From the NCBI GenBank assembly GCA_021234155.1, contig JAJEKV010000059.1, positions 4,090,571-4,154,570 of the forward strand: a stretch of DNA of 64,000 nucleotides. Direction: 5' to 3'. Of this stretch, positions 8,508 to 50,834 are shown in pieces (the first letter of the stretch is position 1; the number at the start of each line of letters is the position of its first letter). This DNA comes from Isoetes taiwanensis (Eukaryota > Streptophyta > Lycopodiopsida > Isoetales > Isoetaceae). Both the position numbers and the translations under genes were made by a program. Under the pieces are notes generated by a model. It was not told where the DNA came from, made no database searches, and saw only the letters and a list, made by a program, of their open reading frames with translations.

Positions 8508-10144
8508 TCACATTTTTCCACGTCTTGAAGTCTTCCTGGCCACAACCTTTTTTATGGCTACTACCTTCTTCCTCACATAATGGAGGATGTTCTTTCTCTT
8601 TTGAAGGATTTTCTTGCTTGTTTTTGACTTACCAATGGCCAATGTTTCTGAGTCTGGTAGTGGCAAGCAATCAATTAAATGGTCATGTACCTCCAATGGC
8701 AAGTCACATACATTGCCTTCACTTGCTACTTGAATGATCTCTACTTTTGCACAAATTACGAGATGCGAATAAGAATTTACGTCAGGCATATGACTGAGCA
8801 ACTCGTATTTGCCATCTTTAATGGATTTGTAGTATTTGCCTGTCAGGATGACATCGTGTCCGCTGAATTTACAGCCCCATTCATCTCTAAATGCATTTTC
8901 AACCACATGTCTAGGCTCCCTGCATTTGACTATCCAAAACTTGACATTCTCTTCATTGTCGGCCTCTGCATTGATGACAAGATTGTCAACTATTTTCACC
9001 ATTTCTGCCTTCCATTGGTTATCTCTCTCGTATTGCACATGAGTTGTAGGTGTATGCTTCTCCATAATCAGGGGCTTCAACTTAGAGTATGTGTAGCGTT
9101 CTAGCTTCTTTATATTTTTATACCTATTCTATAAACCCTTCTAGCAGCCCTCATAAAAACAGGACAAAAACTTGTGTGCTACCATGATAGGATTGGTTTG
9201 ACAGATAGCTCTAATAGTATGGATGCCCTTCACAATCTCACTATCACGTCTAAACTTTCTGCACACTTCACCTACTCTTATTAGCCAGAATACCCTGTGA
9301 ACATGAAGATTACAAGTTAGTAAATGGTGTGACATTGTATGGAAGTCCTTAAATGAAGTACATATATTACCTTATGATATTGTTGCTAAGATCTTGTCTC
9401 ATCTTGTTAAGTGCTTGTCTCACAAACTCCATTCTCATGTGATAGATGCAGCAATATGTCTCCTATCTTTGAGTAATAAATTTAGGCTTTAAGATTACAA
9501 ACGACCTCAAACCTATCTTCATGTCAGGAAAAGACATGCTTGAATCTTTTATAGAACACTACTTGGATTTTGAAAGACAAATCAAAGATGAAAGAAATCC
9601 AAATTTTAAGACAATAAAAAAAGCATTTAAATACTCGTGATTTTTTCAAGAAGTGAATTGCATGCAAGTTATAAGGTTTCAATGCTCTTTTTCCATCCAA
9701 ATGTCTCCTTAATTTAATGACTTACCTTTTATTTGGAGAGACGCGCGTTTTCGAGATGCAAAAGTTATATACCTTTTCTCGATCTTCATCGGAGAGTTTA
9801 TCTGATCTAGACTTCTTATTAAATATGGACCAAAGTCCTCCAATCTCAGCTGATCTCCTTTTGTCTAGAGCAACATATACAACTCTTCTTTTCAAGTTTA
9901 GAGCCCTTGCAAGAGCAATACGATTCCTACTTCCAGTGACAGCCATCATCAAGGTGGAGGACCTTGTTTGGTTGATATCTCGAGTCTTGAAACATTTCTT
10001 AATAGCGAGAGTCTCCTTCACATTGTTAACAACATGCTTGTAAACATTTAATTCTTTGTTTCCTATGATACCATATTCAGAAAGCTGTTTTGCTACTCTT
10101 GCAAAAATAACACGATTGCAAATTAAACGGGAGTGTTGCATCAC
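8508..10144 (-). pseudogene. Decayed DNA-transposon protein
   Basis: Separate minus-strand pieces read in order like one transposase-type protein. The N-terminal part (9722-10144) ends LSDEDREKVYNFCISKTRVSPNKR. Around 9370-9510 the fragments KIGLRSFVILKPKF and ETYCCIYHMRMEFVRQALN follow. Then 9141-9335 reads AHKFLSCFYEGC. The C-terminal piece 8508-9080 (190 codons open) has KFWIVKCREPRHVVENAF and a Lys/Arg-rich tail. The 'RVSPNK', 'YH', 'LSCFC' order is, from memory, a pattern of large uncharacterised transposon proteins in animals, algae and seedless plants; I cannot name the superfamily. The coding is interrupted by stops and frame changes, so it is inactive. It lies beside element A, but nothing shows that it belongs to A. 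Confidence 0.5.
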
Positions 10145-12003
10145 TCCCGTTTCAAAGATTCCCTTTAAAAAAACACCATGTTTCTAAAATAAGCCTTTTT
10201 TGATAGTTGTTGAGAATTTCTAGAGGTTTGCATTTTTTTTCATGCCATTTTGGCCCATCATTAGGCGAAAACTTTGTACTTATGAAACAGAAATCATAAA
10301 AATAGCGAAATTTAGGCATAGACTTGAAGAGACTGAAAGCATTACAAAAAAAAGCACCAGAATAGAAAGGGAAAAAAAGTAATATGTTTTTAATAAATTT
10401 TTGTACATCAATATTGAAGATTCATTGTAATAAATAATGATAATTTTAATATGCAGTAGTCAAAGATCTACATCATAGTCCTCCTCATTCTTTTTGCTGC
10501 TCTCTGCCGTCTCGTCCTTCTGTTCAATCTGCTCCTTTGCTGGAGACTTAAGTTTTGTATCCTCCTTGTTCTCTGGAATGGTAGCTAAAGCTACTTCTTT
10601 AAGCTCTGCAAAGGTTGCCTCGTCGTCTAGTGAGCTCTCGAGAATGGAGGTTTGTATCTCCGAGGGCGTTAGTTTAGCATAATCGGATGAAGACTTGGCC
10701 CCTAACTCTTGATTTTCATCCGGTAAAGTAGGTAAGGCGACCCGGTCTCATCTTCACAAAATGCACGGCCTCCTTATCAATATCCACGGCTATACGATTG
10801 CGGCCCTTCTTAAGTGCACATGCGATAGTAGTACCGAGAACCGGAGAAAGCATCAAGCACCCAATCTCACGGACGCGAGAACATGTCCGGGGAGATGGTT
10901 GATGAGCTTTTGTGGTTTCGGTAGTGATTTACAATCCTGCCTTGTGCACTTGGGTCCCTGCAATTCGTGAAGACTGCTTTGGAAACTCTAGGACGTTTGA
11001 AAAGTTTTGACAGGCGGCAGTGTTAAAGTGTTCCATGGACCTCTTCCCATCAAAACTCCAATAAGCTACATGAAGGTACTCTACCTTGCTGAGCAACCTT
11101 GGTCCTCCACCATGGTAGTTGATGTTCGTTTTGTACCTAGTGAAGCATTTTAAGTGATGTTAGCAAAAACAAGAAAACACTTCGAAAACCAGAAACAGGA
11201 AACACTATTCCGGAATACACTACGTAATTAAAGAGAAAAGTAATTGTATTCTGGAATAAGACTTACCAGACAAGGTTTTCATATCCTGCCTGAACTGGAG
11301 AACCAAAGTGATTTTTGAAAGCTGATTCCACCAAGCCAGACTGCATGCTCGAATGGAACGTAACTAAACGCCAATGTTTGGCCGTTGAGATGCTTTGATT
11401 CCTTCAATGAAAGCATTAAACTCTGAAAATTTGAAGGGTGGTGGTCGTCGATTCTCGGCTGTCTTTAAGCTTAAACCCGTAGGGAAGATCAGCAATAACC
11501 AAAGTAAAGTCCTGTGGCTTAACCGTTCCGACAAGGTTCGTGCAATCACCATGAATGATTGAATATAAATTGTTTTGATCAAACATGCAGAATCTCTCGT
11601 AGTCGGATGGTTCTGGCTCAACAGTTCTTCTTTCAGCTAACGACCTCTCTTCCCGTGCTGTTCTAACCAAATTCATAAAGCCCTCGGGCAGGTCTTTATT
11701 TTTCTTTTTGCTCTAAAGAAAAACAAAACAACAACTGTCAAGAGATCGTTTGTGCAGAGAAAAGGAATTTTGAGAGTACTTACCCAGCCCTCAAAATTTG
11801 GTGCATATTGCACAATGCGCTCGTCGGATGTGGCAATTGGGTAGAGTTCCTTGCACCTTTCCCATGTTTCGACGTTTAGCTGCTCCATCAAACATGTTTG
11901 ACATGTTATGACGTTCTTTTGGCTGCAAGACATTAAGGAAACAATGAGATTAAACGTAAGAATCAAGGCAAAGTAAAAGGAAAACAACTAAAAGTCAAGC
12001 TAT

Positions 12004-12298
12004 TTGTATTCTGGAATACAAACTGGTTAACTGGTGATGCTACCTCGAAACAATATGCAGAAAATAGTTCTGCTACAGGACAAACACTGCTTGTCTCTAG
12101 AAAAGCAATGTGTATTCCGGAATACAAATTGCTTCTCTAAAGGAACGCATGCGTATTCTGAAATACACATTGCCTTTCTTTCAGAGGAGCAATGTTTATT
12201 CCGGAATACACATGCCTTTCTTTAGAGGAGCAATGTGTATTCCGGAATACACAATGCTTTTCTAGAGACAAGCAATGTGTATTCCGGAATACACATTG
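12004..12298. repeat. Palindrome motif 1 cluster in intron 3 of element A
   Basis: Six units built on TGTATTCCGGAATACA lie in the intron between exons 12396-12620 and 11784-11922: about 12004-12022, 12105-12132, 12149-12175, 12190-12214, 12229-12256 and 12271-12298. Several extend to GCAATGTGTATTCC plus its complement. Spacers are about 14-80 bp (mostly 15-17) and often contain TTCTCTA/TAGAG-like sequence. Single diverged units also lie in intron 2 (near 12655) and intron 5 (11206-11217 and 11245-11258). Confidence 0.9.
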
Positions 12299-14322
12299 CC
12301 CGTGTGAAGGAAGGCATCGTGATTCGAATACACTATGTACCGATGTTTTTGGGAATCTAACATGCAAAGAGTAAAGTTTGTGTCAGAGAACTTACTTGTG
12401 CAATTCCTTTGACATTTCTTCTAGGCTAAACTCCTTATCAACAACTTTTTGGAGAAGCTGCTCCAGAAGCTCCGTGTCGGAGAAGCCCCCGCATTTCCCT
12501 CGGACGGTAATGGTCATTTCTTTTTGGGCACGTCCAGGTTTTTTCTTGGCTGTCTCCTTGCCCTTGCTCTTTAACTCCCTATTTCGAACATTGTGAATAT
12601 CTCGTCACGAGTTCCCAAATCTGTTCAAGAAGATTTCACGTCAAATAGTTGGTTTGCTATTCTGGAATACATTTTGTGCTTACCTTGCCATCTCTAAAAG
12701 CTAACTGAAACTAGTTGTCGTGGCCAATGAGAGACTGCCTTTTATTGGCCTCGTCATATTTCAGGCAGCATTCAATGGCACACGCCTCCTTAAGCTCCAA
12801 GGAAAATGCTGGCTTCTTAAGGTCCTCACCGTACTTTTCCTTGAAAATTACATACTCCCTGTGCATAAACCGGATCTTGTCGACAAAGCTCATCTTTAGT
12901 TTGTACTTTCGTTGTCGAGATTGTGGATGTTGGCAACGATTTTTGCTTCTTCATCCGTAAGAGACCACGAGCAGCTTGAGGGGGCGGAGAGGTACCTCGG
13001 GTTCTTCTTTTCTTTGTAAAGTTGCCTTCTTGCCTTGAAGCTATGATTCCCTCCCAAGACGTAGTGAGTGTAGGTGTCAGCGTTTTCTCTGTCATACTCC
13101 TGGGGGGTTGTGCACTGCTCCCTGTCAACAAGGACAACTATTGGGGCCACATGAGCATTTGGATTGCTCCTTATTCTGTCCTTCAGGTTCCTCAAGTGAT
13201 CGGCATAAATTTTGCGAACCTGAAGTGGCCTTTCACCAGCTTCATTTTTCGGAGGAAGCTTCATTGAAGTGACTGGCAAATAAATGACACCTTGCACAAA
13301 CTTGTGCAGGTTAATCTCTTCCATTTTTTCAGATGTTTTATCAACTTTTTTTTCCTTAATAGCAACACCAGGTGCTTTACCCTTCCCCTTCTTCTTCTTA
13401 GGTTCCTCGGGGACTTCTGTGATTTCAAGCTGCTGTGCTTTCCGCTTCTTTGGTTCTTTAGCAGCTATGGTTGCCCTTGGCCTGCTAAGTTTCTTTGGCC
13501 GCACAGGGGGTTCTTCCTCGTCTTGTTCCTGGGAACCTCCATCTGATGACCTCCCTGAAGAACTAGCATCTGAGGGTGGTGATTGTGACCTTTCTCCATC
13601 TGAATGCTCGGACTCACTGACAGGAAAGTCCTCGCTTGTACTGGTACAAACCTGTCTAATTACTGAACACAGGCTTCTTTTTGTCCGGTAGTGTGAAAAG
13701 AATTTGTACAGTGCCTGTGGTTGCACACTGACAATTCTAAAAAATGCGATGTCCACAACTATGAAGCCTTGGGAGGTCTTGAAGGATAGCCTCCCCACCT
13801 GACCACCTTGTCCGGCAACCTCGGAGACATCTTTTATTGTCCCAAGGTTCACAAACTCGGAGTCGGCGTACCTTTTGTTACCAGCACTTTTACAGACGTA
13901 CAAAAACGTCAGTGTGCTGTATTTTCCATCTGCACCCCTGGTTACGAACCACTGCGTTTGAAAGTTTTCGTAAATAGCAGGTTCGTCCGTGTCAGCGGTG
14001 TGCTTTTGTGGGTGTGGACGCTTAGGCTTATGAGATTTCTTTGATGCCCTCTTGCTTCCTTCTTCCCTGCCACTGAAACGTTTAAAACAACAATGTTAAG
14101 ACAGAAATTCGAACGAAAACTGTATTCCAGAATAACATTTACTAATCTTGTGCCCTAAAGGCCAGAAAAAGACAGGAAAACAAGCAGAAATATAGTAACT
14201 CTAAGACAATTTTTTGTGCCTTAATTGGACTCGAAATTGTTATTTTAACCTTTAAAGTGGTCTGTTTTAGCTAAAAGGTGTCTTATTTAAGTGCTAAAAA
14301 ACAAGAGTTTCCAAAAAGACAA

Positions 14323-14696
14323 GCAAAGTGTATTCCGGAATACACTTTGCCCTTCGGGTGAAGAGCAAAGTGTATTCCGGAATACACTTTGCCCTTCGGG
14401 TGAAGTGCAAAGTGTATTCCGGAATACACTTTGCCCTTCGGGTAAGGAGCAAAGTGTATTCCGGAATACACTTTGCACTACAGGCGTAGTGCAAAGTGTA
14501 TTCCGGAATACACTTTGCACTCTGGCGTAGTGCAAAGTGTATTCCAGGAATACACTTGCTCTTTTCACCGAAGGGCAAAGTGTATTCCGAATACACTTTG
14601 CACTTTGCACTTCTCGCCAAATGAGCAAAGTGTATTCCGAATACACTTTGTTTCTTCGACGAGATGGGCAAAGTGTATTCGGAATACACTTTGCCC
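14323..14696. repeat. 42-bp-period array of 28-bp palindromes, intron 1 of element A
   Basis: Nine units start at 14323, 14365, 14407, 14449, 14491, 14532, 14575, 14625 and 14668. The first five are perfect 28-bp palindromes: half site GCAAAGTGTATTCC followed by its reverse complement. The last four have one-base changes at the centre (TATTCCAGGAATA, TATTCCGAATA or TATTCGGAATA). Spacers of about 14 bp are variants of CCTTCGGGTGAAGA, themselves partly self-complementary. The array lies between the tiny first exon and exon 2 of the ParB-methyltransferase gene. Its open frames on both strands are by-products of the repeat. Confidence 0.95.
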
Positions 14697-14760
14697 TACA
14701 AAACCAAATCAGAAAACAAAAGAAAGGCGTACTATGTACTTTATATGCTTACCCGTCCAT

Positions 14761-15093
14761 TGTCTTCGCTTATGTAAATCGGAATACAAACAAATGTATA
14801 TTGATCGGAGGAATTTCGGGCTGGCGACTAAATCTGAAAGCGGAATACGAATCGAAATTTCGATTTTCCTTTTTAAAGGTAGTTCCACCGCGGGTTGTGT
14901 TTTTCTATGTAATGCGGAATACGCCTTGTCCAAACACTCACGGACAAGTGTATTTCGGAATAGCATCTTTGCACACACGATACAAAGAATGTTGCACACA
15001 AAATACTATTAGGAATAGCATTTGTATTCTTGAATATCATTAGTCCAATCGACTTGTGAGTTAGTAACAAGCCCACAATTTTTTTGCAGTTGT
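14761..15093. promoter_or_regulatory. Divergent promoter region of element A
   Basis: About 330 bp separates the ATG of the minus-strand methyltransferase gene (14758-14760) from the plus-strand transposase-like gene. It contains partial motif-1 copies (GGAATAC near 14780, 14843, 14912 and 14958), a TTTAAA box near 14870 that could serve the minus gene, and a polypyrimidine-CAG acceptor at about 15080-15090, suggesting a non-coding first exon for the plus gene. The layout matches the 547-bp gap in element B. Confidence 0.4.
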
Positions 15094-18061
15094 TTGACAT
15101 GGTTAACCGCCTCGCGGAACAAACTTCCACCACCATTTGTTTGCCCAAGTACCTCTACGCCGGATGGAACACAAGACGGAGATGCTTCTTCAACACCTAC
15201 CTCGACAAGGTCTTTGTTGCTTCTCGAAGACACTCCAGTCCAAGAAACTAGCAGACTGCCACCACCTTTCCAACCCTCTCCAAGTCCAAGAGGGAAACCG
15301 GCCGCCACCACCTTTCCAACCCTCACCGTTGCACGTAGCAATCTTCCACCACCATTTGTACCATCCCCCGACACTACAATGGCTCGACCTCAAAGAAATT
15401 TTTGGAACCGACTACCTCCGCTGGCTTTTGTTGTTTCTCCATCTTCACTTACACATGCTAGGAATACAGCACGTTCTGAAGACTGCGAGATCCTCCATCG
15501 CTTCTCCCACCACGATTTCACTACAAATGAAGACGACCCTGCAGAATCTACACCTCTTCACACAAACGTGGTGACACATGGGTTTGCAGAATTTCAGTCT
15601 GCTATAAAAGATATGTTTGATCGAACTCCCTGTGAAGACAATACAACAACTTTCGCTGGCACATCATATGCTGGCCCATCTCCTTCATTCAACACTGCAC
15701 CTCCGCCTTATCCGGGTACAGCTTCACGTGGTTTGTTCTCCTCTACAAGCACACCACTAGGGGTAGAGGAGGTCACCCCCAGAGTAGAACTCTCTTCAGA
15801 AGATGAAGACACCAACGAAGTGCAACGAGATTACACATTCTCTAGCCAATCCACCAAGAAATTCAAGGTGGATTTTAGTTTGAGAGCATGCTCCTCTGTA
15901 AGAAGAAGAAACCTAATGAGAAGACTTTTAAGAAGTAAATGCTGCTCATTGGGTTGCATCAACAAATTTAACATGGCTAAATTACGAGCAATTAGAGACA
16001 ACTACAGTTCAATGACATTGGCTGACCAGAATGCCTATTTGGCCTATCATGTAAGACCAGACCGCAACACCTTCTTGCACTACATTAACCGTCAAGAAGT
16101 TTGCCGAAATGCTTTATGGTTGTCCATCGCTTAGGGTCCACCGAATGTCTAGAATACACAAAAGATCGACAAAAATCCAGCAATTGATGATCATTGTGGA
16201 CCAAGAAGAGTTGTAACCATGCATGCCCTGTCTGCCGTGTCATGGATGGAGAAATATTTTAGAGAAACATGTGAGAAGTCGCCTTAACAAGAACATGTAT
16301 CATTTAACCGATAACATCACCAAAAAGATGTTTTTAATGAGTACAAAGAGACTTGCACTTTCTTCAAAGACATCTCTTACTCACACTTCACCGATCGTGG
16401 AAAAGTGAATTCGGTTTAGTGAAAATTCCCGTGAGACATAGAATGTCCGTTTGTTCAAGGTGTGCGAATTAAAGAGTCAAAGAGAAACCGCAAAGACAGA
16501 GGTCGAAAGAAGTAAGCTCATGTTCTCCAATCTCTCACTTGTTTTAAAGATAATGCTTTGACCTTATTTCTTCTACGAGATATTGTGCAACGTAACCTTG
16601 CCGGACATCGTGAACAACAAGCGCCAGAGAGAAGAAAGCTTGCCAAACACGAAAAAAAGCTCTTGAATGTCCACCGCAATATATGTCTCTGTTAGATTGA
16701 TGGAATGGACCAAAAAACTACTCTACCAAGATTTCTTGAACATTCCTAAAGATGTGCCAGGAGGAATGTTTTGTTAAGGTCCACCTTGTAGGAGCTATGG
16801 TCTTCAAAGGAAGTCTAAAGTGCAAAGTATTCTTGACGATCCAAACTTGCATGGTGACCCGAACCTCACAATTACAATTCTTAACAAGGTCCCCGCGGCG
16901 AAAGCAAGAGCAATTACCACCGCTTGCTTTTTTACGCAACTTGACAATACTACAAGGGAGAACAAGAACCAAACACTCTTTGCGTGATCGTGCCATGTTA
17001 GTGGAGCTAGGGATCTTTATAAAAGTGAAGCTGGGTTTCTTACTTGTAGGCCACACTCATGATCAAATTGACCAAATGTTCAGCAGATTTTTTAGGTGCC
17101 TCGAGGAAGGAAGAAGGCTTTCTCTTCCTACTTTAGTTCGAATTATTGAAGATTCTTACACTCCCACTCCGGTGATCGATCTTCTTAAAGAGACCGCTGA
17201 TTTCGAGAGTTTATTTTCTCTCAACGCTCATCTGAGAGAACAAGTTGCGGAACAAATTGAATGATCTCACCTTTCAACATCACATCAAGTTCTACTTGAA
17301 GGATGACCCGAGTTTCTTACAGGCAAGAAGTATACCACAACTAAGGACCGAGTCCACCGGAGGGATTACGCTTCCTTAAATATATTCCGACACTTCCTTC
17401 AGAGAACGCGGCTTTGAGCAACTTCCTCTCAAAAATCCTAAGGAGTCCAAGCAAAAAAGAAAAGTACCCCAGAAGTCATCCTTAAAAGCCATAGAAAATG
17501 GAATTTCCTCAGGGCTTTAAGTACTTCTTAGAAGAAGATCGAATGTGGTGGAGTAACTTCTTTCTAACAAAAAATTGTTGTGAAAAATATAGCTCTAAAG
17601 ACGGTTGCAAGAACCATTTCAATGGCCTAACACCTTCCATCAACCCCAAAGACCAAGCAGGTTCAAGCAATGCTACGTTAGCACCTGCGCAGAGAAGAAG
17701 ACGAGGATCGAGTCATATACCTCGGACCAAGACGCAGGAATGAGCCTCAAGGTAATATCACGTAAATTACCAAGGGTATGCTAATTGCTCTTCCCATCGA
17801 GGAGGATGACAAAGGTCGACCTTTCTCGATAGCAAAAGTGCTTGACACAAATCAAGGAGGAAGGCTTAGTCACTAAACTCAAGATTCATTGGCTTGCAAC
17901 ACGCCGTAAAAATGCTTTTGAAGGTAGATATGAGTTAGAAATGAGAAGCCAAGGAAAAGGGAGAAAGTCCAAGAAGGTGGGTTGTAGGGATGAGCTGATC
18001 CTTAATGACGTGACTATATTATGCTATGATTTTAAATTGAAATCGACAATCGCTCACGCTT
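15094..18061 (+). pseudogene. Element A: transposase-like protein with GHTH..ID motif (DUF7869-type), broken
   Basis: The first 347 codons (to 16134) are open. They start with four or five repeats around 'LPPPF', then an acidic segment, then the Cys-rich block SKCCSLGCINKF and VCRNALWLSIA. After the stop at 16134 the protein continues in changing frames: IDGMDQKTTLPRFL (about 16696), QLDNTTRENKNQTLFA (about 16943), VGHTHDQIDQMFSRFF (17046-17090) and a C-terminal block (17842-18061) with KIHWLATRRKNAFEG. The same order, CCKH block, 'DxMDQ', 'QLDNxxxxNKN', 'GHTHxxID', is found in the element-B gene at 39.1-42.2 kb. I recall this as the DUF7869 type found in many seedless-plant and animal repeats; a role as an RNase-H-like transposase is likely but inferred. 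Confidence 0.65.
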
Positions 18062-18069
18062 AGAGGACT

Positions 18070-18260
18070 ATCAATTTGCTTAAAAAGCTTGTAATTACGA
18101 AGAAGAGGATGAAGAAGGTGGTGGCAATGCTTCACCATCTGTTGATAGTGATGAGGAAGATAACTCAAGCACTTCCTCTAGTGATAGTGAAAGAAGTGAA
18201 GGTGATGAGGATGGCATAAATGAACATGATGACGCCCCGGATCCCCTCTCATCACTCCTC
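18070..18260 (+). other. Acidic low-complexity coding-like tail
   Basis: Runs of GAA/GAT/AGT codons resemble the acidic tails of the element genes. It probably belongs to the decayed transposase-like protein just upstream, but it is out of frame and cannot be assigned firmly. Confidence 0.3.
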
Positions 18261-18659
18261 ACACTTTTTGTACATAATCGAGTCTTAGAAAAAGATCAGA
18301 ATTTTGCATGTGAATATGAAGATTCTATCTTCAAATTTGGAGAATACTACAGTTTCAGTTACGGACTTACTTCAATTTTTTGTTAAATATTTTATCCTCT
18401 GAAATTAGAGATTCTCTCGTAAAATATACTTCAAGAACATTCTATTTGCTAAGAAAAGTGACACTTTAAAAATGTCAATTCTTTGGTTGCACAAAAAAAT
18501 TAGTCATTTTGGGGGGGGGGGTCAAAATAGAATTTCATGCATCTTTTTTTTTTTAACCTAGTTTTACCCCCTTTTGTAAAAAAAAAGAGGGAATCTTTGA
18601 GGAATATTCCTTTCGCTCTCGTTTCGATGATTTGCTCCCGTTTAATACGCAATCTTGTT

Positions 18660-19330
18660 AAATCTCTTTTCTATCCTCAAAATGCAAATTGAAGCATACC
18701 TTATTTTTTGGTGAAATCCACGATTTCCTTGGCCAATTTTTGTTTCTTTTTTGTGGTGATTTTTTCGTTGCTCTTATCTGCTCCAAAGACCAATTTCTCA
18801 GACTCTCTCTTCCTCTTTCTTTGCAATCTCCTTTTAGCTGATAGAATGCTTCTACATGCGGTATTTGGGGATACACAATTGCACACTATTTTACAATCAT
18901 CTAAGCATGTTCTAGAGGCTTCAGAAACTGGAGATACAGGAGATGAAGGCACCATGCATATGGATCCACAATTTCATGGATTTCTTGTGGATTTAGTGCC
19001 CATACTGCACAATATAGTTTGAACTAAACTCATCCAAAGCAATATCAAGAGCAGGAGCAATCTCTTCTGGATCTTGGCCATCAAATTGAGCTGCAAATTC
19101 AGCAGCATACCTTTTAACCAAATCCATTGATTTCCATTCAAAATGTTTTTGCTGAACCAAATATTCTCAATCTAATTTTCAAAATTCGCTTGGAACTGCT
19201 TCAGCCCGCCAATTTGGAGCAGGAGAACTAGCTCCTATAGCCGGATCGCTGACATGGCCAACTAATTTTCCAATTAGGATGAGTCAAGCAAATCACTTTT
19301 CGTGCCGTTCTTCATCATTCTTCAACCTAT
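18660..19330 (-). pseudogene. Unidentified decayed coding fragment
   Basis: Minus-strand pieces read like protein but carry stops: VSDPAIGASSPAPNWRAEAV, HFEWKSMDLVKRYAAEFAA, QFDGQDPEEIAPALDIALDE (about 19030-19260), and a basic Ser/Lys-rich part at 18701-18955. I do not recognise the family. Low GC flanks and nearby poly-G (about 18511) and poly-A runs suggest a repeat environment. Confidence 0.25.
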
Positions 19331-19469: not shown

Positions 19470-20842
19470 GATTGTGAATGCTTGTCTTTGCCAACCTCAT
19501 GGCCTATACTCCAGAGGACATGCAACGTCACCTGAATGCTCTTGACACTTTTTGCCAATTCACTGGCATGCGAGTTAACTTGGCCAAAACTAGGGTGCTG
19601 CTAGTTGCATCATCCCGTCAGCCAAGGCTTCCCACATTCACTTACCAGGGGCAAGAGGTAGAGGTGGCTCCGACCTACAAGTACTTGGGGATTGAGTTCT
19701 CAACTACCACCCATTGGGATACGGCTATCAGGTTGCGGGTCACGGCGGGTTGGAAAGCACTATATGCTATGCAGAACAACAGCCACAAGGCGAGTTGTAT
19801 GCTGGGGTCATCGGATCACATTTGTTTGGGCCTTGGTTGAGCCGGTCCTTTTGTATGGGGCAGCGGTGCAGGGGTCCGGTGATATCCCTCAACACCGAAT
19901 GACCTCGAAAGGTGCGAGAAGGCCTTCTTGGCACGGGCCCAGGGGTGAAGTCCACATTCCGTGCAGATCTTACTCCGGGAGACGGGCTTTTTACCCCTTC
20001 AGCGGGCTGCATTGGAACACCATATCGTTTACTTCCAAAAGGTGGTCGCTATGGCTGATACACGCTTGCCTCGCCTTTGCTTTTGCCACGCAATGGGCCC
20101 CAACGCTGAAATCTCGTTGGAAAACAAGGTGCTCGATGGTTCTCACTGGGGTGTGCAGCAAACGAGAATCGCCCGTGTCGGGACAAAGAAAGATCGCGAG
20201 GCACTTAAACTATACCTTGATGCTACTTTTCCTTCGCAAGTCGTGGGATCAGAGGCTCGACGCATGTTAAGGCGGGCACACTATCGCCAAGAAGTCAATC
20301 CTAGGCTCACAAGAGGCCCACACCAAGATTTGTACACCCAGCCTACCCATGAAGAAGCGCAGCTTATAGCTTCCATTCGCAGACGGGGCACATTGAAACG
20401 TATGTTGGGCTCGGGAAGCACGAGCAAAGGCTTTGCCGTTGTTGCCACCGCAGGCCGATTGAGGATGAATGTCATGCCCTCCGGACCTGCCTCAAACATT
20501 TGCCCATATCCGGAGAGCGATATGTTCGACATTACTAGTGCCTGGCCACCGTTACATCGCTTATTGACTACGGCGTCCGGTGGGTTTGTTGGGGTCGCAC
20601 CTCCGTGGAGGTTATGGATGCACGGACTCGTTTGTGTCCTGCGGGACGGTATTGAACTGTCCTATGCAATTGTACAGTGTGCCAGCAGGCTTATTACTGC
20701 TAAGGTTTTTCCCTCGAAAACCCTTCGGGGGGGGTTTTTAATCCTGTCAGTAATAAGCTTGCTGCTCTCTCTTTTTGTTTGGGTCCCATAGGCCAATTGG
20801 TCTCCGTGGACGCTAAAAACCTATTCTATTCTATTCTATTCT
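19470..20842 (+). mobile_element. 5'-truncated LINE, 3' part with (TTCTA)n tail
   Basis: The C-terminal end of a non-LTR reverse transcriptase is readable: TFCQFTGMRVNLAKTRVLLV, then YKYLGIEFSTTTHWDT, then WKALYAMQNN, continuing in shifted frames to about 20440 (NPRLTRGPHQDLYTQPTHEE). The element ends with a conserved 3' segment (CCAATTGGTCTCCGTGGACG) and a CTATT/TTCTA tail at about 20815-20842. Two further copies lie in the window, at 30.1 kb (tail only) and at 54.5 kb. Frameshifts near 19700 and 19960 make it dead. Confidence 0.8.
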
Positions 20843-39120: not shown

Positions 39121-42100
39121 CTAATAAGCATCACCAGCGAGGGCTGCATATGCTTCAGCAACGGGCTTCTTCCTGTTCGATGGAGACCAAGCAAAGTCGA
39201 TTGTCTTCAACTCAATGCGATCACTAGCAGTGGTTGGCCTCCATCTTTTCTTCCAACAGTTTACATAATTGGCTGGGTACACTTGGTTCCTTACGGGGAC
39301 AGGCTCCCACCAAGTGATCTGTACTGCCTCAAAATTCAACTTCTTATCATCCATCTGGGGCTCCTCCGTGGCGTATCCTACCCATGTGGGACACAAGACG
39401 TCATCAGGACGTGCCATAATGAACATACCTTTCTTCACATCCTTGAATGGATTGAATTCTGGTATGGGTTTATCCTTCAATGGTCCCACGTATGGAGGAG
39501 CGATGCTTGCAATTGGCTCCGCTACTGCAACTATTTCTGGAAGTGAGCTCGTTCTTGCCTGGTGCATGGCCAAAAGTCGTCGTAAGTGCCTTCCGGGCAC
39601 GAGATCTTCCCTAGCTCCTATAAAAGACCGATCCAATACTCAATGGTAGCCGTGAATTGTGCGGAATAGTTGGCTGTTTCCGGGGTGCCTTTCTTGCTTG
39701 TGGAGATTGCAACCCAATGAAAGATGTGCTTGTGGATGCTGTTTCACAGCTGGCCAAGGTCTTTTACTGTTGCCTTTGGTTTAAGCAGCTTGGGTGTTCC
39801 AACAGGCATTATGGGCTTCCCGTCTACCCCTTCCTTCCACATTTTTATACCGCCTGTAGGCAGCCAATCCAAGAAGCACGGACGAGTTTTGTAATACATG
39901 ACAGGCCACTCTCCATTCATTGCAAATTTGAATGTCAGGGGGGTGGTGTGGCCAGTCAATCTATCATCGCCGTCGGATATGTACCCTTCTATAAACCCCT
40001 TCCAATCTGGCACTTTATCAACAATGTATGGTACAGGTGCATTCAGATTGCATGTGTGGAACTCAGATAATAATTCGGGCATGGTCAGCACTTCGGCCTT
40101 CTTCAGAGTGGAGGAGAATTTGCCAAACAAAGCATCAATGTCTTCGTGTGTATGTCCAGGCATCATGAAACCCAACTCTATCTCCTCGAACACACCAAGA
40201 TATACTAGGTATGAAAGATACGAGAATACATACCTGTTTTTGTTTTGACCCGAAGCATTGTCCAGTTGCAGCAACAGTGTTCGGGGGAGGGGCTTGAAAG
40301 AAGGTCCTTCTGGTCTAGGCAAGCTTGCAGGGATGTTGCTATTGGTGAGTGCCAATTTCGATTTGAGTGCCGCATTGTTACGCAAGGAAGTCACCCAAGC
40401 TGGAGCTGATGTTTCCGGCATTGTAAGATGGCCTCCTGGATACTCATGAACCATCTCCAGCCTTCTCAAGATGCAATTCAAAGAACCCACATAGAAGTTC
40501 GAGTCATCTGGCCATAGATCCAAAGCAAAGTTTCCATAGCTTCCCCACCCATGACCATGAGTGAGAGCACCCGTCAATGATGTTTTGAGTTTATCCAGTC
40601 TCCAAAGTGACTTCACCGATTGCTGCAATTTTGGAATCATTGTCTTTGCCTAGTCCATCTTATCATGAATTATACAAACATAGTTTTTGGGATACCTATG
40701 GGACAATAATCTCCACGACCAATACTGGATACGACAGGAGGCTTGCTCCAATCTGTGTGCTCTTCTCTGGTCATGCAATATCCTCCTTTCTACCTCATCC
40801 TTTGTCTTCAACAGCTTCGTACGAATGACCTCACATGTATCACATTTAGAGAACGGATTTTTTTTTGCGATACTGACATCCCTAAAGCTCCTTTTACAAG
40901 TTCTATGAAACCCCACTGGCAAGACTTTCTTGCCTGTCAGTGCCATAACTTCTACATTCACCTCTTCTAGGATGCTTGTTTTCGTAAACATTGCAGGCAA
41001 CTTCTTAATGTTTTCCCGGATGCCATCTTCATTCCTCCGACTACGGTGAGGCAAGGATTCGCAATTCTCCCTTACGAATATGGAGAAAACTGCCTCGGAT
41101 GCTAAGGTGGATGCACGAGGCTTCAAACTACCACAGTTCCCGTGCTCTGCTTTGCGAGCACCCTCCATGTATTGTGCTTTCCATTTCAGATACCCTGACT
41201 TTGAGATTCCCAACCCAAGGTACCAGGCTCTCTCACAGACTAGCCTGCTATGCAACACTAGACATTCCACTCGATAGCCTTTCATGTTGTTCCCAAGCAT
41301 GTCATACACAAATGTCACCCTGTCGCTAGACTTTATTGCATAGAACTCCTTGCGCATGTTGATGACCTGATTATGTGAGAACTTTGCACAACACCTGTGT
41401 TTGCAACACAACGTCGTTCAATATTTCAAAATAGCCTCCCTAGGGCTAAGGCGTTCAATCTTAGGCTGTCTCAAGAACCGCCTACGCTGAGGGAGTGGAA
41501 AGTGTACTTGCGCCTCTCGAAATTTGGATGCTTCTCAATAACAGAGCTAACTTGACTTGACAGAGTATCTGCTTGCTCGGTTGGCTTTGCAGTCAAGATC
41601 ACAGAAACCTTTACACCATCCAATGTAACATATTCATTACTCCACCTAACAAGCATACTTGCTTTTGGTACCTGTAAACAAGCCTGACAGCGGAAATTCA
41701 CTTCAGCAGGAATCGGGTAACCCTCAACAATTGTCACTCCAATGCATTTCAACCCTAAGAACTGGTCGCATACTGTATCATCTGGGCCTGTAAAGGATAT
41801 GAACCCTTGTCCCGCAGGAATGGAGGCGCAAGAGTGCCATATTTCACAGTCCTTCTCCAGTAAAGTGTATCTGGTCTGGGGGATAGGTTCCATAGTAGAT
41901 TCCACTCTCTGTTTTTTGGAGGTGGACCCGACATTCTCTATATTGGATTCACAGACGTCTTCCTCTCTCCAAAAAATGAAGGATCCTTTGGCTTCTCCTA
42001 TAGTTTTACGCATCCGGAGTGGGCCATGGGAGGGCGTGACACTCCTCAAAAACCTCTTGAACACCAACAGCAGCGGCTCCAACGGGGATGGTTCTGAAAT

Positions 42101-43085: not shown

Positions 43086-43762
43086 AGGTCATGTGCTTGA
43101 TAGTCGAACCCTAAACTTGCTTCCCTCAGTAAAATGGGTGCCCACCCTATTTTTCTGTTAATCACAGCTTTCAACAGGTTATGTGCTTGATAGTCGAACC
43201 ACCTAACCTTGCTTCCCTCAGTAAAATGGGCGCCCGCCCTATTTTTCTGTTAATCACAGCTTTCAGCAGGTAATATGCTTGAAAGTCGAACAACCTAACC
43301 TTCCTTTCTGCTCAGTAAATTGGGTGCCCGCCCTATTTGTCTATTAATCACAGCTCCGAGCAGGTCATGTGCTTAAAAGTCGAACCACCTCACCTTCCTT
43401 CCCGCTCAGTAAATTGGGCGCCCGCCCAATTTCACTGAGGAAATGTCTCTGCGTCAATTGCGAGCACTTAGTAAATTGGGCGTCCGACCGTTGCACCTAG
43501 GAAGTGTGTATGCCTCAAGATCATCCACCGTTATGCTTGTCAGGTTGGTGGCCAGTCCTGGACCTGGCAAATTGGGCGGACGCCCAATTTTAGAAGGACA
43601 TACCTCTCCCTTGGCGCCCCCCTGAACCATTCCACCTTAGTTCAAGATAAGTAAATTGGGCGGGCGCCCAATTTATCTCTGAATTGTATGCCCAATTTTG
43701 GGTATCCAGGATTTCTTGGACATCTTGCGCCCCCTTTGCAAATTGGGCGCCCGGCCAATTTA
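43086..43762. repeat. Intron-1 repeats of element B: ~90-bp tandem units carrying palindrome motif 2
   Basis: Tandem units start at CAGGTcATGTGCTTGA (43086), 43175, 43266 and 43361, spacing 89-95 bp. Each contains an (A)AAT(T/G)GGGCGCCCGCCC core and an ACCTTGCTTCCCTCAGTAAA block. Cleaner motif-2 copies follow at 43411-43432, 43569-43590, 43653-43674 and 43739-43762. Motif 2 is two 10-bp arms, AAATTGGGCG and CGCCCAATTT, around a 2-bp centre. Confidence 0.9.
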
Positions 43763-45485
43763 CTGTAATACTGTCGGTCAACTTGTACTTCATGGTACTT
43801 ATGGTAAGCAGTACTTAATTCTTGTTTGATGCAATGCAGGACTAATGGCAAGGACAAAATAGGCGCCGCATGCGGCTATGGACTGGGATACGCATTTCAT
43901 TCTTTGCCGCGAAAGAGACAGAACAGGATGTGACATTTCAAGGGATTGAAGTAGTTCCAGAAGAAATCACTTCTGTTGCTGACAACACGTGGTGCATTGA
44001 AATTGGAAACGTAAATCCTAAGTCGAGCACAAACCATCTCAAGGATTTATGTTTTATATTTTGCCGCGAGGGGACAAAAAAAGACAAGCAATGCGGGGAT
44101 AACAATTGATATGGGGGTAAACACAGAGGTACCCGCGAGATAGAGGTTTTGTGGAAGACGTATTGGACAAGTGCTTCTGTGCATACATGCTACCCCTTGC
44201 CACTTATGACCCCCAACTCATGTCAGCAAGCATTACCGAAAATCAAAACTCCTGCGCCGCAAAGGGTTGGCAGATGAACTCATACGAGAGCTTGGAAAGA
44301 TCTGGAATTAGAAAGCGTGGAGACGTTATAGACGGCTTCAACATAGTCAGGCAGTGGATTCTTGATCACAAGCAGACTAGGTTGAAGGGCTTGTATACAG
44401 AATATCATGAGAAGGCCCAGCCAAAAGTGTACGATTCGGCCTGGTTGAGGTCTCGATATGGAGTTCCCAAAAAGGGAGAAGCAGAAAAAAGTGTAGAGAA
44501 GTCTAAGAATGTAGCAGTTGAAAAGGGAACTGCTGCAAAGAAGAAGAGATCATCTTTGACAACAAACCCCAGCATTGAGACGCCACTTGTCATGCTTGGA
44601 GGTATGGAAAAGAGAGCAAGATCCTCTGATCCGAGCAATAGTGCTGGAGAATCTTCTGAACATTCTGCTGACCTTCGGTTCAGCAAGAAACAAAGAGCAG
44701 AAGAACAAGCAGGCACCTCCTCTAAGAAACGAAGACGTCCCACTCCGCCTCAGACTTCATCTGAGATAAGCGAAGACAGTGAAATGTCTAGCGATAGTGG
44801 AGAAGGGGGATCATTGCCAATTGTACAGTATACAGCCTCTACTGGGGAGTTAACACAGGAAAGTAGGCGTGAATTATCTCAGAGCGCCATGTTGAACATC
44901 AAGCATAGGGAGAGGATTTATCCACTCGGTATTGGGTTTTTGAAATTGACGTCGACATATTCAAGATGCATCAAGCCCCTGCCAACATGGCTTGCAGGGT
45001 CATCAGTGCAGAACACGTAGATACCCTTTATGAATCTTTCATAACTATGCAAATGCATCCTCCGTGTGCAGGTGTCATTCCATTTGACCCGTCAACAGGG
45101 CATGCTATGAAATGGAAGAGAGCAAGTGATTTGGACAATGCGGAATTCTGGATCGTCAATGGAAATCACACTACAGCCGTTGCTCAAATCCTTGTGAACC
45201 AGGCTTTGGAATGGCCCTCAGAAAGGAAGCATTTAAAAGATTTGATCTTTTTCTTTTACGCCAAGAGAAAGTGTCGTGTACTGGCTGGAAACCTAACTCC
45301 AACGGAATATGTTAAGGTCAGCCAGGAAACAAATGATATCATAGTCAAGACAATCTTCGAGCAGGTCCAGCAACTTCAACAATCGGGGAACTCGTATGGC
45401 AAGCCCAAGAAAGGGGGAAGTGGTCAATCAACGGAAGGCGCTCTCTGTGAGTTGTCTCCCCATTAACCCCTGTCCCATGCAATCC

Positions 45486-45600
45486 AAATCGGGCGCCCGC
45501 CCAATTTCAACCATGCCATTGTTCTTCCAATCTCTTGTAATCTCGGACCTCCAATCGAATGCACATGCATGTTCACTCCAAATAGGGCGCCGCCCAATTT
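45486..45600. repeat. Motif-2 palindromes in intron 2 of element B
   Basis: Two copies, 45486-45507 and 45580-45600, lie between the gtgagt donor at 45447 and the CAG acceptor near 45708. The second has lost one centre base. Confidence 0.85.
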
Positions 45601-46642
45601 CAAACCCTTAATACGGTCCATATTGTAGTTTAGGTCTCCAATTCTTGTGTCATCTCATCTTGTCTTACGGTATCTTTTGTTTGCGGGAATGGGTAGCTAT
45701 CGTGAAAAGCAGCACCAAGAAGAATAAGAGCATCTTGGGACTATGATTACCGTCTATCTTGACGATGAAACTTGGAATATGTGCACTTTTCGTGTCGCTC
45801 AACTTTTACGAGGGACGAAGTGAAGGATGAGAATGGCGATAGAATTGAAGTCAAAGATCGTCTAAGGATGTTCACAAACAATTCTTGTCGGCCACTGAAG
45901 TCTATGCACCCCATGGACTTGTAGAGATTAATGAGGGAGATCATGACAGGCACCACGTTCTTCAAGGCCACGAAGGCTTATAAAGGAAGGCGTGTCATGA
46001 AGACAAGAGCGCAATAATTAAGGAAAATTGGCATTAACAAAGTTTAAAATGAAACGCACTTATTTGCTGCAAACGCACTTCAAAAGGAATCTTTGAAAGA
46101 TTCCCTAAAATTCCCTTAAAAAATGCCCTTTTCTTGGTATATTTGTGACAAGTGTGACAATTTGAATATTTTAGGCACCATTTTTGGAGGGGAATTTGAA
46201 CTCAGCTTCCATTCAAAATTGTTTGGTACCATTTTTTGACCCCCTAGTTTGGTTTGAGAAATAGTAATATTTTTAAGGACAAAACAAAATAGACATTGAA
46301 AAAAAAACAGCAAAGCCTAAGAGTGCCCAAAAACGTATTTAGTTCAAAGTTTATAAATTCACTACAAAATTATGAACAAAATTGCAAAAAATGCAACACA
46401 TTTTGATATTGCCTCAATGAAGCAAATATTGTCACCTTAAAGTATGCCTCACACGTGAGGTGAAGTCGAAGATGCTTGCGCTTTGCTTTATACACTTGCT
46501 CTTATTTGCTCCTCCAAATTTTGCTATAGACTTACGTATACCGCTTGATGGCTTACGTATGTATCCAATCACGGACTTTTTTAAACTTTGTAATTTATTT
46601 GTTCTCTGTAGTCTTTAGTTTCTTCCAAATAAATTTCAAGAT

Positions 46643-47016
46643 GGTATAAATTTATACCTTAATAGATAGTAATATGTGGACATAGTATGCTAGAGAGTTC
46701 ATGACGGTATAAATTTATACTTAAAGAAGACTTGAGCGGTATAGATTTATACAACAAAAGAACTCGGCGGTATAAATTTATACAAAAAAAGGACTCGGCC
46801 CGGTATAAATTTATACCATAAAGAGGAAAGCGGTATAAATTTATACCAAGAAGAGTTTTCTGTGTATAAATTTATACTAAAGATATATATATATGTATAT
46901 TATATAAATATATAATACATATATAACATATATATTTACATATATATATCAGAAAAAAGAGAGTCTTGCGGTATAAATCTATACCATGAGACTTCTATGT
47001 ATAAATTTATACCGCT
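46643..47016. repeat. Palindrome motif 3 array: GGTATAAATTTATACC
   Basis: Units lie at 46643-46658, 46706-46720, 46738-46752, 46769-46783, 46802-46817, 46831-46846, 46862-46877, 46970-46986 and 47000-47016, about 30 bp apart in the dense part, and one further at 47776-47790. Three are perfect 16-bp palindromes. They alternate with (TA)n-rich DNA at 46885-46950 and 47030-47120. All copies lie inside the nested transposon. Confidence 0.9.
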
Positions 47017-47426
47017 TTTTGTTTTTATATATACAAATATGTGAACATATATATATATTGAATATATATATATATATATTAACATGTATAAGATGTATAT
47101 AGATATATATATACATAAAATATGTAGTCCAGAGTATAAGTTTATATTGTGCAAAATCTTGTGGGGTCTTTCTTGCTCCCAAAGGTTTTTGCAACTTAAT
47201 CTTGTTGAAATAACACACTCAAGGGATAATTTTATGCGATTTTTCTTAGTTTTTTAGTTCAAAAAGTTCTAAAATAGTTCTAAATTCTCTCGACCTTGTA
47301 ATGCAATGTTAGAGCATAAATTAGTCGAATCCCGTTGTTATTTTTTTTTTTTTTTTCTACACACATGCTAACTTCACTTTAGGCAGCTCAAAACCGCTTC
47401 TAAAGGCAAAAGGACCCCAAAATGTT

Positions 47427-47741
47427 ATGGAGACACATGTGTTCAACGAGAAGGAAAACTTCGTGAGTTTGTCCATAGGGGTGCGAGGGAGTAGCAACCC
47501 CTCAAAAGTTTACCTATTTCTTTGCAAAATGGACAAAAAAAAAAAGCAAGATAGACAAATACTTCTCTGTGGAGAAATGTGCGGTGTGGCCGCTACTGAG
47601 ATGATGGAATTGTCTTTGAAGACTCTCAACATTGACAAGGAGCTTGACTATCTTCTCAACATCACTATATTGTGGATTGGTATTGTGCAAGCCCAAAGAC
47701 ATGATGAATACATCTCGAGAACAACAAAGAAGGCCATGTAA
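47427..47741 (+). CDS. Small ORF of the nested transposon, unknown function
   Basis: 104 codons open from METHVFNEKENFVSLS. It contains a Lys-rich turn (KMDKKKKQDRQ) and a helical C-terminal part (LSLKTLNIDKELDYLLNITI). I do not recognise it. It is the longest open frame in the element and is bracketed by motif-3 palindromes. It could be chance or one exon of a small gene: GT and AG sites exist nearby, but none is decisive. Confidence 0.3.
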   Translation: METHVFNEKENFVSLSIGVRGSSNPSKVYLFLCKMDKKKKQDRQILLCGEMCGVAATEMMELSLKTLNIDKELDYLLNITILWIGIVQAQRHDEYISRTTKKAM

Positions 47742-49029
47742 TCACAGAGCTTCACTACTTCAACTTCGTTTCCTCGGTATAAATTTATCGGCATCGTCGG
47801 TTGGAACTTCAACTAAGCGCATGATTTCGTGGATGTATTATCATTTGTAATACCATATGATGCAAAAACAATAATTTTTCATTCAAGCGGTTTGTTCAAC
47901 TGTCTCCCAATGTCTTTTAAGGTCAATTAGGATGTTTAGCCAAAATGGTTGTGAAATAACAAATTTTTGTCTTCTATAGCACCCAATATAAACGTTCTAA
48001 GGGATAAGATACAAAAGCGTCTAATTTTTTCATATGAGTTTGCCCCATAATAAATCTTTGGCTTTCGTAGTGGTCCTTTTTCCCTCTAAAATGAGATATT
48101 TTTCTTTGTTGTTCTTCTCCTTAATGTTAAGTCTTCCTAAAATGTCTGTTTTCATGAGCAGTTTTATAAATCTTTAGACACAAGATAGTAAAAGAGTCCT
48201 TTTTAGGGGTATTTTAGAATTTTGTAAATTTTTAGAAGGAATCTTTCAAACGCACTTCTTAAATAAGTGCGTTTCATTTTAAACCTTGTTCATTGTTGAG
48301 CGTGCATTACTGAAATATCTAAGAGAGGTGAAGAAGTTAAAAGTCGAAAATATGGATGAAGTCAGACAGTTTCATCCCATATTCACAGAGAACCTCATGC
48401 TAATGTTTGCAAACAATGTCAGTGATTGGACAGAGAGTCGAAAAGAAGCTGAGAAGGAAAATCTTCCAGAGACTCTAATTATAAAAGTTAACGAATACCT
48501 CCGTGGACCAGTTGAAGAGGGTTCGAAGGCTTTCAAATGCCTGACTGTCAGTCCACTGGGGATGTGTGTTAATGTCATGAATACGTCAGCACGTCTTGTT
48601 GGATGTGACTTTAGGAACCTTAAGAAATGGTCGGTAGAGGAGTATCAGAAATTCATGGATCAGATTAGTATCCTAACGGACCAGCAGTTATATTGGATAA
48701 CGATATTCATCAGCCCAGAGCATTTGAATGAGTGCTTGGCTGCAATGAAAACAATAGATGGTGGTAGTCGGGTGTGGATTAGAGCCTACCAGGATCCAAA
48801 AGCAAAGTCGGGGTCAACCTCTAGAGTTCGTGAGCTTCAGAGTCTTGTCTTGGTCATGTACGTGGCCCGAGACCAAGTGGCAACTCCTGCACTGGATGAC
48901 TTGAATGTATGCTTTATAGACAGTGACCATCCACAACAACATTGAAATTTCCCAAAGATCTTAAAGAGGCAGAGGACATCGAGAAAACTTACCGTGACGC
49001 TTGAGTGCTTTTGTGGGTAATATTCTTTG

Positions 49030-49051
49030 AAATAGGGCGATCACCCAATTT
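49030..49051. repeat. Motif-2 palindrome in an intron of element B
   Basis: AAATAGGGCGATCACCCAAT-type unit between a gtaata donor (near 49018) and the TTTCTTTTTCAG acceptor ending near 49088. It is the only notable sequence in this 70-bp intron. Confidence 0.8.
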
Positions 49052-49981
49052 ATGTGTTGCTTTTCTTTGAAATAGTTTCTTTTTCAGCAGTATTGGTTAA
49101 TATCGTCCACAGGGTGATAAGAGTGCAAAGCGGTGGAGTGCGGACCCCTCGTTCCGAATCAACTACAAGCCAAGACTTGCACGTATTTGGTGCGCAAACT
49201 AATGATGGAGAGTTGCAGCGTTCTTGATTTCTTTTCTGGAGGTTCATTCGTGCAGCACCATGCGAAGGATACAAAGCAACTTTTTTGAGATGAACGAGAA
49301 CCTGTAGCTCAAGCTAGTGCAGATCTTCGATCAACTAGAAATAATGTTGGACGAAAAGAAATCATTGGCCCGCAGGAGGCAGAAAATTGCAGAGGGCAAG
49401 AAGAAGAAATCTGGTTCCAAGCCATGCGGTTACAAAAATCACCGCCTGTCGGCAAATCCATTCTCTCTTTCGATACGGTTCGGGAGGCGCAATCCCTTGC
49501 AGAGCAAATAAAGAAGGCTGCAGGATTAAGAAGTAAGGATATATCCATCTTAGAATGAAAAAGATAAAATTAATATGTTGGCGGGGAACCCAAGTGGTGA
49601 ACACTCGGGATGTCATTGGCGGTGAGTTCGAAATTCAATGAGATAGTGGACAATGATCGTGAGGAATCCTTCATCAAGGACACACCTCAAAGTCAACAGG
49701 ACGAAGAGCCAGATAAAGCACGAGAGCATGAGGAAGAACAAAGGCAGGTAGACAATACAGACAGAATATCCGATGTGGAGAAGGAGACCGGTGAGGTAGA
49801 CAGAGGTGAGGGAGAGACAGGTGAAGAAGGTGGCTCACTGAGCAATGAAGAATTCATTAACATGATGGAAGCTATAAAGCAAGCTGCCCAAATAACAACA
49901 AGATCAACATAATGACGTCGACAACACTGAAGAGAACCCCCCAGACCCGTGAACAAAGGTTGGAGTTTCGGAGAGTTGCTG

Positions 49982-50242
49982 AAATTGGGCGCCCGCCCAA
50001 TTTCAGCAGTCACATCTGTCGAATCAATATTATATCATGTAATTTTGTATCTAAGATCAAACATGTAATCTTGTATCTGTGACAATTTTGAAATCATGAA
50101 ATACAAATTTTTCTTGTGATGCTGTTCATTCTATTGGATTTAATTGGTTGTATACTAATAGAACGTCTGAGATAATTGGGCGGGTGCCCAATTTTCCTGC
50201 GCTAGAAGAGTCCCGCATAGAAATTGGGCGGGCGCCCAATTT
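49982..50242. repeat. Motif-2 palindromes downstream of the element B gene
   Basis: Three copies at 49982-50003, 50173-50194 and 50221-50242. The first follows the stop codon of the methyltransferase gene by 70 bp; the copy in B' has one at the same place. Confidence 0.9.
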
Positions 50243-50449
50243 GAACCCTGGGGTGGGCGGTAGCAACCAGTGCCAGCAGTTGAACGTGAAGTGGTGGAAG
50301 TGCAGAAAAAGTGGAGGTCGAAGAGCACAACTTTATAAATTACTCAGGTTCGATACATGAAATAATATTCACTATGCTTATACATCCTTACATATTTCAG
50401 AATTGCTTATATCATTATATCCTTAACAGGTACACAAGTCATCACTGTT

Positions 50450-50692: not shown

Positions 50693-50834
50693 GGGAGATG
50701 AATGACCCTTACCAACCATTTGGAGCTACTTTTATAGTGAAGTAAAATTATAGATGTCAATTATTGGTGTAGATTGTACTGCCATTATTGAGCATGTACA
50801 AGTATCATGTACAATTATCATGTACACGTACGAG

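Follow-up and report, generated by a model that had tools for sequence, protein, structure and literature searches.

The brown-algal transposon Sola1-1_Ec32 of Ectocarpus, 21.5 kb long, encodes on the strand opposite to its transposase a protein of 1104 amino acids with ParB-like and N4/N6 methyltransferase parts, and green and red algal ParB-methyltransferases (Iyer 2011; Petroll 2025) are cited in the same paper (PMC12477816). The paper further puts forward that proteins of this kind attach to the transposon encoding them and modify it; self-modification as an idea has therefore already been published. The present work concerns a stretch of 64,000 nucleotides from the lycophyte Isoetes taiwanensis (hereafter the window; contig JAJEKV010000059.1 of assembly GCA_021234155.1), in which positions 10109-18659 are occupied by an 8551-bp DNA transposon, element A. 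Like Sola1-1_Ec32, element A is a DNA transposon with a ParB-like and methyltransferase gene opposite to the transposase strand, whereas lineage-specific palindromes such as that of element A are not mentioned for the algal element in the accessible sections of PMC12477816. An earlier note on this DNA had presented the pairing of the two genes as undescribed, a claim which, in view of these algal transposons (PMC12477816), no longer holds. In the open-licence literature searched, no land-plant case of a ParB-methyltransferase transposon was found. Element A belongs to the DNA transposons of the cut-and-paste type and carries, opposite to the strand of its DUF7869 transposase, an accessory ParB-like/beta-class methyltransferase.

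The VANDAL transposons of Arabidopsis are Mutator-like elements, and their VANC protein is not known to be a methyltransferase. They resemble element A by the possession of an accessory protein and of short lineage-specific tandem motifs located in introns and upstream regions (PMC5735166, PMC10398659); in VANDAL21, the motifs bound by VANC are tandem repeats changing in step with the lineage of the element (PMC5735166). Lineage-specific tandem motifs were likewise found in the non-coding DNA of element A, with the difference that the VANC motif YAGTATTAY is not a palindrome, unlike the sites described here. On balance, we incline to the view that these palindromes serve the methyltransferase of the element as self-address sites and would provide a lineage-specific anti-silencing comparable to that of VANC in VANDAL. 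The fungal transposons carrying TET/JBP enzymes are also DNA transposons equipped with a DNA-base-modifying enzyme, but this enzyme is a dioxygenase and the transposases belong to other superfamilies (PMC12730594). In the accessible parts of this related transposon literature, palindromes are not mentioned, no search having been aimed at them.

Two divergent genes in one transposon

The limits of element A were drawn from its relatives in the genome (1,658,258,908 bases in 1110 pieces, the window being positions 4090571-4154570 of one piece). Matches to a left-end piece (10040-10480) begin at query base 70, that is at 10109, in 19 of the 39 other best matches and at bases 49-69 in the remainder, while those to a right-end piece (18250-18720) stop at base 410, that is at 18659, in 18 of 39 and, with a single exception (395), at bases 409-416 in all. 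These common start and stop points set the element at 10109-18659, an extent larger than the 10460-18061 previously indicated. Alignment of the two ends reveals terminal inverted repeats, AACACGATTGCAAATTAAACGGGAG on the left (10109-10133, plus strand) and AACAAGATTGCGTATTAAACGGGAG, read from outside, on the right (18635-18659, minus strand), with 22 of 25 bases equal, and the whole is framed by a 4-bp target site duplication, AAAT, at 10105-10108 and 18660-18663. The earlier note had proposed to look for copies with flanking duplications. Both ends of 15 copies were inspected by eye, and an exact duplication of 4 bp flanks 14 of them, that of L003 being imperfect. Beyond these 4 bp, an imperfect local duplication of about 12-36 bp of flanking DNA was noticed by eye at L010/L011, L020/L021 and L016/L017.

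A first look at the genome returned 1397 candidates for the left end, 1590 for the right end, 919 for the ParB piece and 1122 for the transposase piece, of which the 40 best per piece were scored. The left ends of the 39 other best matches are 96-99% identical, which indicates that at least those copies spread recently. In the window copy, frameshifts break both genes, and the exons of five other full copies are interrupted as well in the open reading frame (ORF) lists, which cover L004 and L005 in part. Inspected by eye, the exons of L003-L007 are hit in different copies by frameshifts and short scrambled segments at recurrent positions, which may reflect assembly error rather than decay. As the published I. 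taiwanensis assembly was built on nanopore reads (PMC8566536), either cause may lie behind these broken exons.

The two genes form one element, and they are linked across divergent lineages. Besides being enclosed by one pair of inverted repeats and one 4-bp duplication, they keep the expected order and orientation in all pairs lying within 25 kb of each other among the 40 best genome matches of each piece (ParB-transposase 9/9, ParB-right end 11/11, ParB-left end 18/18). In addition, about 7 kb upstream was read at 12 divergent DUF7869 loci, hand-picked from 150 listed ones for their differing profile coverage and with a transposase 42-58% identical to that of the window copy. A divergent ParB-methyltransferase gene with collinear exons is present at seven of them and its ParB part alone at an eighth, L029; queries from other lineages left this outcome (seven, one and four without the gene) unchanged. 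Finally, 24 of 150 listed methyltransferase matches have a listed DUF7869 match within 20 kb, 21 of them head-to-head and three otherwise, while shifted controls average 0.59 and reach at most 4, the 150 listed matches of each kind being small parts of their families. The proposal that both genes belong to a single element is thereby borne out by the shared repeats and duplication, the consistent order and the recurrence in divergent loci, as is, within this genome, the expectation that they would be adjacent and divergent beyond chance.

The transposase gene, broken in the window copy, was delimited from its ORFs at 15034-18063 on the plus strand and contains a DUF7869 domain at 16740-17264 (plus strand; Pfam PF25273, E 2.9e-23). 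Its score of 82.9 bits lies above the cut-off of 26, and that of a relative, L026, reaches 185.7 bits. All the motifs named in the earlier note were located, QLDN...NKN at 16937-16969 and GHTHDQID at 17049-17072 within this domain, GGNHS, DLPYG and DAFSGS on the minus strand. In the genome, DUF7869 gave 9907 first-look candidates, of which 150 were scored. The family is without mention in the open-licence literature searched, the L026 transposase has no sequence match among solved structures up to E 1, and scans of viral contigs yielded no confirmed relative of the transposase, the methyltransferase exon or the ParB exon.

With regard to the superfamily, Ginger transposases are of the integrase-core type; Ginger was rejected, the Pfam scan of the L026 transposase giving DUF7869 only, and no integrase core, up to E 0.5. 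The KDZ (Zisupton) superfamily was rejected too, since a Zisupton target duplication has 8 bp (PMC12730594) and not 4 bp, and since DUF7869 stands alone by Pfam in the L026 transposase. A 4-bp target duplication such as that of element A has been reported for Sola2 (PMC3627910), and this duplication, together with the gene layout, makes Sola a likely superfamily.

The ParB-like methyltransferase

The accessory gene occupies 10460-14076 on the minus strand, as delineated from ORFs, splice edges set by eye, the gene model of L026 and the collinear exons of the seven divergent loci. Its exons lie at about 12681-14076 and at 12395-12626, 11784-11919, 11268-11714 and 10460-11144, all on the minus strand, with a further 5' exon left unplaced. 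The ORF-based model of L026 comprises six exons with GT-AG-compatible edges (by eye, within a base), five of them consisting of whole codons and the last one being ended at an arbitrary point. The protein begins with an N-terminal domain and an acidic linker; the ParB-like domain comes next, and then a methyltransferase in which motif IV precedes motif I. On the minus strand of the window copy, the ParB-like domain (VLGGNHSFKAR), modestly supported by PHROG and by profile comparison via relatives, corresponds to 12896-13290, its GGNHS lying inside the ORF 12896-14095; the motif IV exon (IADLPYGFK, from ORFs) corresponds to 11416-11712, with DLPYG at 11476-11490; and the motif I region (DAFSGS, from ORFs and the relative L028) corresponds to 10716-10928, with DAFSGS at 10837-10854 and a frameshift after it.

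While the methyltransferase piece of the window remains below the Pfam cut-off (E 0.16), the C-terminal exon of the better-preserved L028 matches PF01555, N6_N4_Mtase, with E 2e-15. The relatives thus combine an N6_N4_Mtase domain with a motif IV (DLPYG or DIPYG) placed ahead of motif I, the arrangement of the beta class. Among solved structures, the adenine enzymes MboIIA, RsrI and CcrM are the best matches, the N4-cytosine enzyme PvuII coming with E 0.0086; judging from these sequence comparisons, the enzyme is of the beta class and probably adenine-specific. The ParB-like part is less firmly assigned: that of the relative L036 matches a PHROG ParB-like family with E 0.013, and profile comparison with phage ParB-methyltransferases gives E 4.9e-4 (probability 32%), values which drop to E 0.0035 and 9% when the second element of the window, described below, is added. 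No Pfam ParB match was found in the relatives scanned, and phage sequences searched with the ParB exon of L026 gave no match up to E 0.01.

The methyltransferase of Aeromonas phage ST4 likely has the same two-part order as the element protein, with N6_N4_Mtase at 212-443 and a front part that matches phage genes annotated as ParB-like or partitioning. Its motif I region aligns with that of the element over 59 columns (probability 97%), and it is about 30% identical to the last exon of the element over 60% of this exon. Unlike the element protein, it has neither an additional N-terminal domain nor introns, and it contains no Pfam ParB domain up to E 0.1. Such a phage match alone does not show that the methyltransferase is of phage origin.

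In two close pairs of the same palindrome class, the ratio of nonsynonymous to synonymous substitutions (dN/dS) of the methyltransferase exons is near 0.1 (0.05/0.53 and 0.04/0.46), which indicates that the enzyme is maintained by purifying selection; the estimate rests on close pairs, synonymous sites being mostly saturated between palindrome classes. With a dN/dS of 0.30/0.60 in the first of these pairs, the N-terminal domain evolves fast.

Lineage-specific palindromes and their possible role

The palindrome of element A is TATTCCGGAATA, and those of other lineages are TATAAATTTATA, TATGCGCGCATA and TATGAATTCATA. Within element A, GTATTCCGGAATAC is matched 17 times with at most 2 mismatches, always inside 11205-14963, compared to 0.10 in shuffles of the window, and in 50 Markov shuffles of each of 20 loci the same 12-bp palindrome never appeared twice. 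Among 38 loci read, 33 carry two or more exact sites belonging to one class (ten in class A, six of which are near-identical copies, 16 in B, five in C and two in D), and 31 of these 33 are without an exact site of a second class; the other two, L026 and L038, make up the TATGAATTCATA class, and each of them also holds a single exact TATAAATTTATA site. As the TATGAATTCATA and TATAAATTTATA classes differ at two bases, L026 and L038 may be intermediates. At the scale of the genome, and counting sites wherever they lie, inside or outside elements, exact sites far outnumber those of the reversed controls for the four palindromes counted, the GAATTC class being left out: 3720 against 0 for GTATTCCGGAATAC, 12556 against 17 for GTATAAATTTATAC, 1551 against 0 for CTATGCGCGCATAG, and 2848 against 0 for AATTGGGCGNNCGCCCAATT, the class of the second element of the window. 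A palindrome of the same composition, GTATTGGCCAATAC, is found three times.

The palindrome class follows the transposase clade. On a tree of 38 transposase rows, classes A and C are each confined to one side of one branch, and classes B and D are interrupted solely by site-less loci. The tree, which is built on 175 columns and in which several class A rows are long-branched, requires 8 changes of palindrome label compared to a mean of 19.6 after shuffling, a test inflated by near-copies.

As for placement, the sites of element A extend over 11206-15036 (18 sites, at most 2 mismatches in 12). They include a tandem array of GTGTATTCCGGAATACAC with a 42-bp period in the divergent intergenic or 5' region (14322-14697) and, within an intron of the methyltransferase gene (12084-12300), a second array built from this palindrome. 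The first array lies in the interval between the two genes, which measures about 0.94 kb (from the ORF edge at 14095 to that at 15034) and not the 330 bp given by the earlier note. None of the 18 sites of element A touches a methyltransferase exon (exon fraction 0.63); this test took in the methyltransferase exons alone, the sites ending about where the transposase ORF starts. Similarly, none of 25 sites in L028 (coding fraction 0.74) and none of seven in L026 (0.68) touches an exon of either gene as drawn, five L028 sites lying where the transposase stop-to-stop ORF starts or within its first part, upstream of its first ATG, being counted as non-coding. The intron after the ParB exon holds sites in three classes. 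The arrays of element A have distinct 28-bp arms, GCAAAGTG/CACTTTGC and GCAATGTG/CACATTGC, each perfectly palindromic.

These tandem arrays of variable copy number could suggest that the palindromes are functionless by-products of slippage and hairpin formation. We consider this very improbable in the light of the intron shared as a location by three classes, the perfect palindromy of both arm versions, the avoidance of exons and the genome-wide excess over a palindromic control. The clustering of sites between the divergent genes and the agreement of palindrome class with transposase clade would rather fit operator sites, serving the transposase or an autoregulation of the divergent promoters, with the methyltransferase as separate cargo. 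In the same line, site spacings peak near multiples of the helical turn (in class A, 25 of 33 at 41-42 bp), with strong Rayleigh values, although spacings within tandem arrays are not independent and this phasing is therefore a hint only. On the other hand, several introns of the methyltransferase gene also contain sites, and the termini of element A, where transposase sites would be expected, have none nearby, so that we judge this explanation rather unlikely.

The list of 18 sites leaves the ends of element A without a palindrome of their own class, which also bears on another possibility. Dam methylation couples the transposition of IS10 to DNA replication. A methyltransferase acting in this manner, instead of blocking silencing, would agree with a beta-class enzyme of the m6A type and with palindromic sites, which would be hemimethylated after replication; given the bare ends, we regard it as improbable. 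Finally, the lineage-specific cores TCCGGA, GAATTC and GCGCGC resemble restriction sites, as if the mark shielded element DNA from a nuclease of the element or of the host. We give hardly any credence to such restriction-like protection: the sites avoid coding DNA, and a Pfam scan of eight pieces of the element revealed no nuclease, no search having been aimed at nucleases.

Under the self-address reading, which we prefer, the ParB-like protein would bind the palindromes of its own lineage, the bound enzyme would methylate adenine there, and either the mark or the bound protein would prevent the host from silencing the divergent promoters; these three activities of the element enzyme are inferred, whereas the element itself is established. 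As lineages would drift to new palindromes, each would protect only itself. Provided that adenine is the target of a single enzyme family across the four TAT-core-ATA classes, the choice is narrowed by the TATGCGCGCATA class, whose adenines are confined to the TAT and CATA arms. N6-methyladenine (6mA) accompanies permissive chromatin in unicellular eukaryotes with AMT1, according to the accessible text of PMC12695648, which would fit an anti-silencing role, AMT1 being an enzyme of another kind. More tentatively, and short of what we would call probable, thousands of transposons in a vascular plant might each write a private 6mA self-mark, their own adenine methyltransferase reading lineage-specific TAT-core-ATA addresses with a swappable 6-bp core that are spread over introns and promoter, 6mA then acting against silencing in a plant. 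Lineages would in that case change their address in the manner of restriction-modification systems, and the mixed TATGAATTCATA/TATAAATTTATA loci may show such a change under way. If true, the self-address reading would provide a second, chemically different answer to the problem solved by VANC, that of a transposon freeing only itself from silencing; it would also offer candidate target sites for the ParB-methyltransferases of algal transposons, extended to land plants, and a naturally occurring set of DNA-binding proteins whose palindromic specificities can be exchanged.

Several observations weigh against this reading. Palindrome class and clade track every element gene equally, so that the sites could serve the transposase or a host factor. 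The ParB homology of the element protein is modest, a single-sequence structure prediction of the window ParB exon having a mean predicted local distance difference test score (pLDDT) of 37.8 and a two-sequence prediction for the transposase of the second element a mean of 33.4, and N4-cytosine methylation is a less likely alternative activity. L028 and L036 share a palindrome class while their fast N-terminal domains are 63% identical, and the N-terminal domain thus need not read the palindrome. Four of the 12 divergent loci (L027, L031, L033 and L034) have no methyltransferase gene within about 7 kb, and exact sites are absent from five of the 38 loci read (L034, L040, L042, L044 and L051). 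Only two loci represent the TATGAATTCATA class, and its limits are not sharp: if one mismatch is tolerated, they contain 7 and 4 sites of their own class next to 6 and 5 sites assignable to TATAAATTTATA. In L028, an additional site extends into the coding end of the methyltransferase, overlapping its final codon and stop codon.

A second element and other features of the window

The window contains a second DUF7869 element, at about 39-52 kb, whose DUF7869 shares 27% identity with its counterpart in element A. Its DUF7869 part lies at 39744-40649 on the minus strand (PF25273, E 2e-42), and putative ParB-like (WIVNGNHTTAVA) and methyltransferase-like pieces, detected by tblastn with ORFs of L033 (E 3.3e-4 to 1.3e-14), run divergently from it on the plus strand at 44909-49249. 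Neither these two pieces nor the L033 ORFs have a Pfam match above the cut-off, and they were named by eye. The palindrome of this element, AATTGGGCGnnCGCCCAATT, occurs at 13 sites with at most 3 mismatches over 43224-52008, six of them between its two genes. Terminal repeats were looked for in this element and none was found. Positions 46644-47790, within the second element, hold a fragment of a TATAAATTTATA-class element, consisting of a site array and a remnant of the N-terminal domain.

The ORF pair of L033 (853-4583), which resembles that of the second element and again has no Pfam match above the cut-off, stands beside a TATAAATTTATA-class transposase and carries a further palindrome, GCGCAGCTGCGC, within AAATGGCGCAGCTGCGCCATTT. 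On the minus strand of the window, a methyltransferase piece resembling motif I at 60791-61722, accompanied by weak AATTGGGCG-class sites, is perhaps another decayed copy. Finally, ORFs at 19478-20791 resemble, by eye, fragments of a non-LTR (long terminal repeat) reverse transcriptase.

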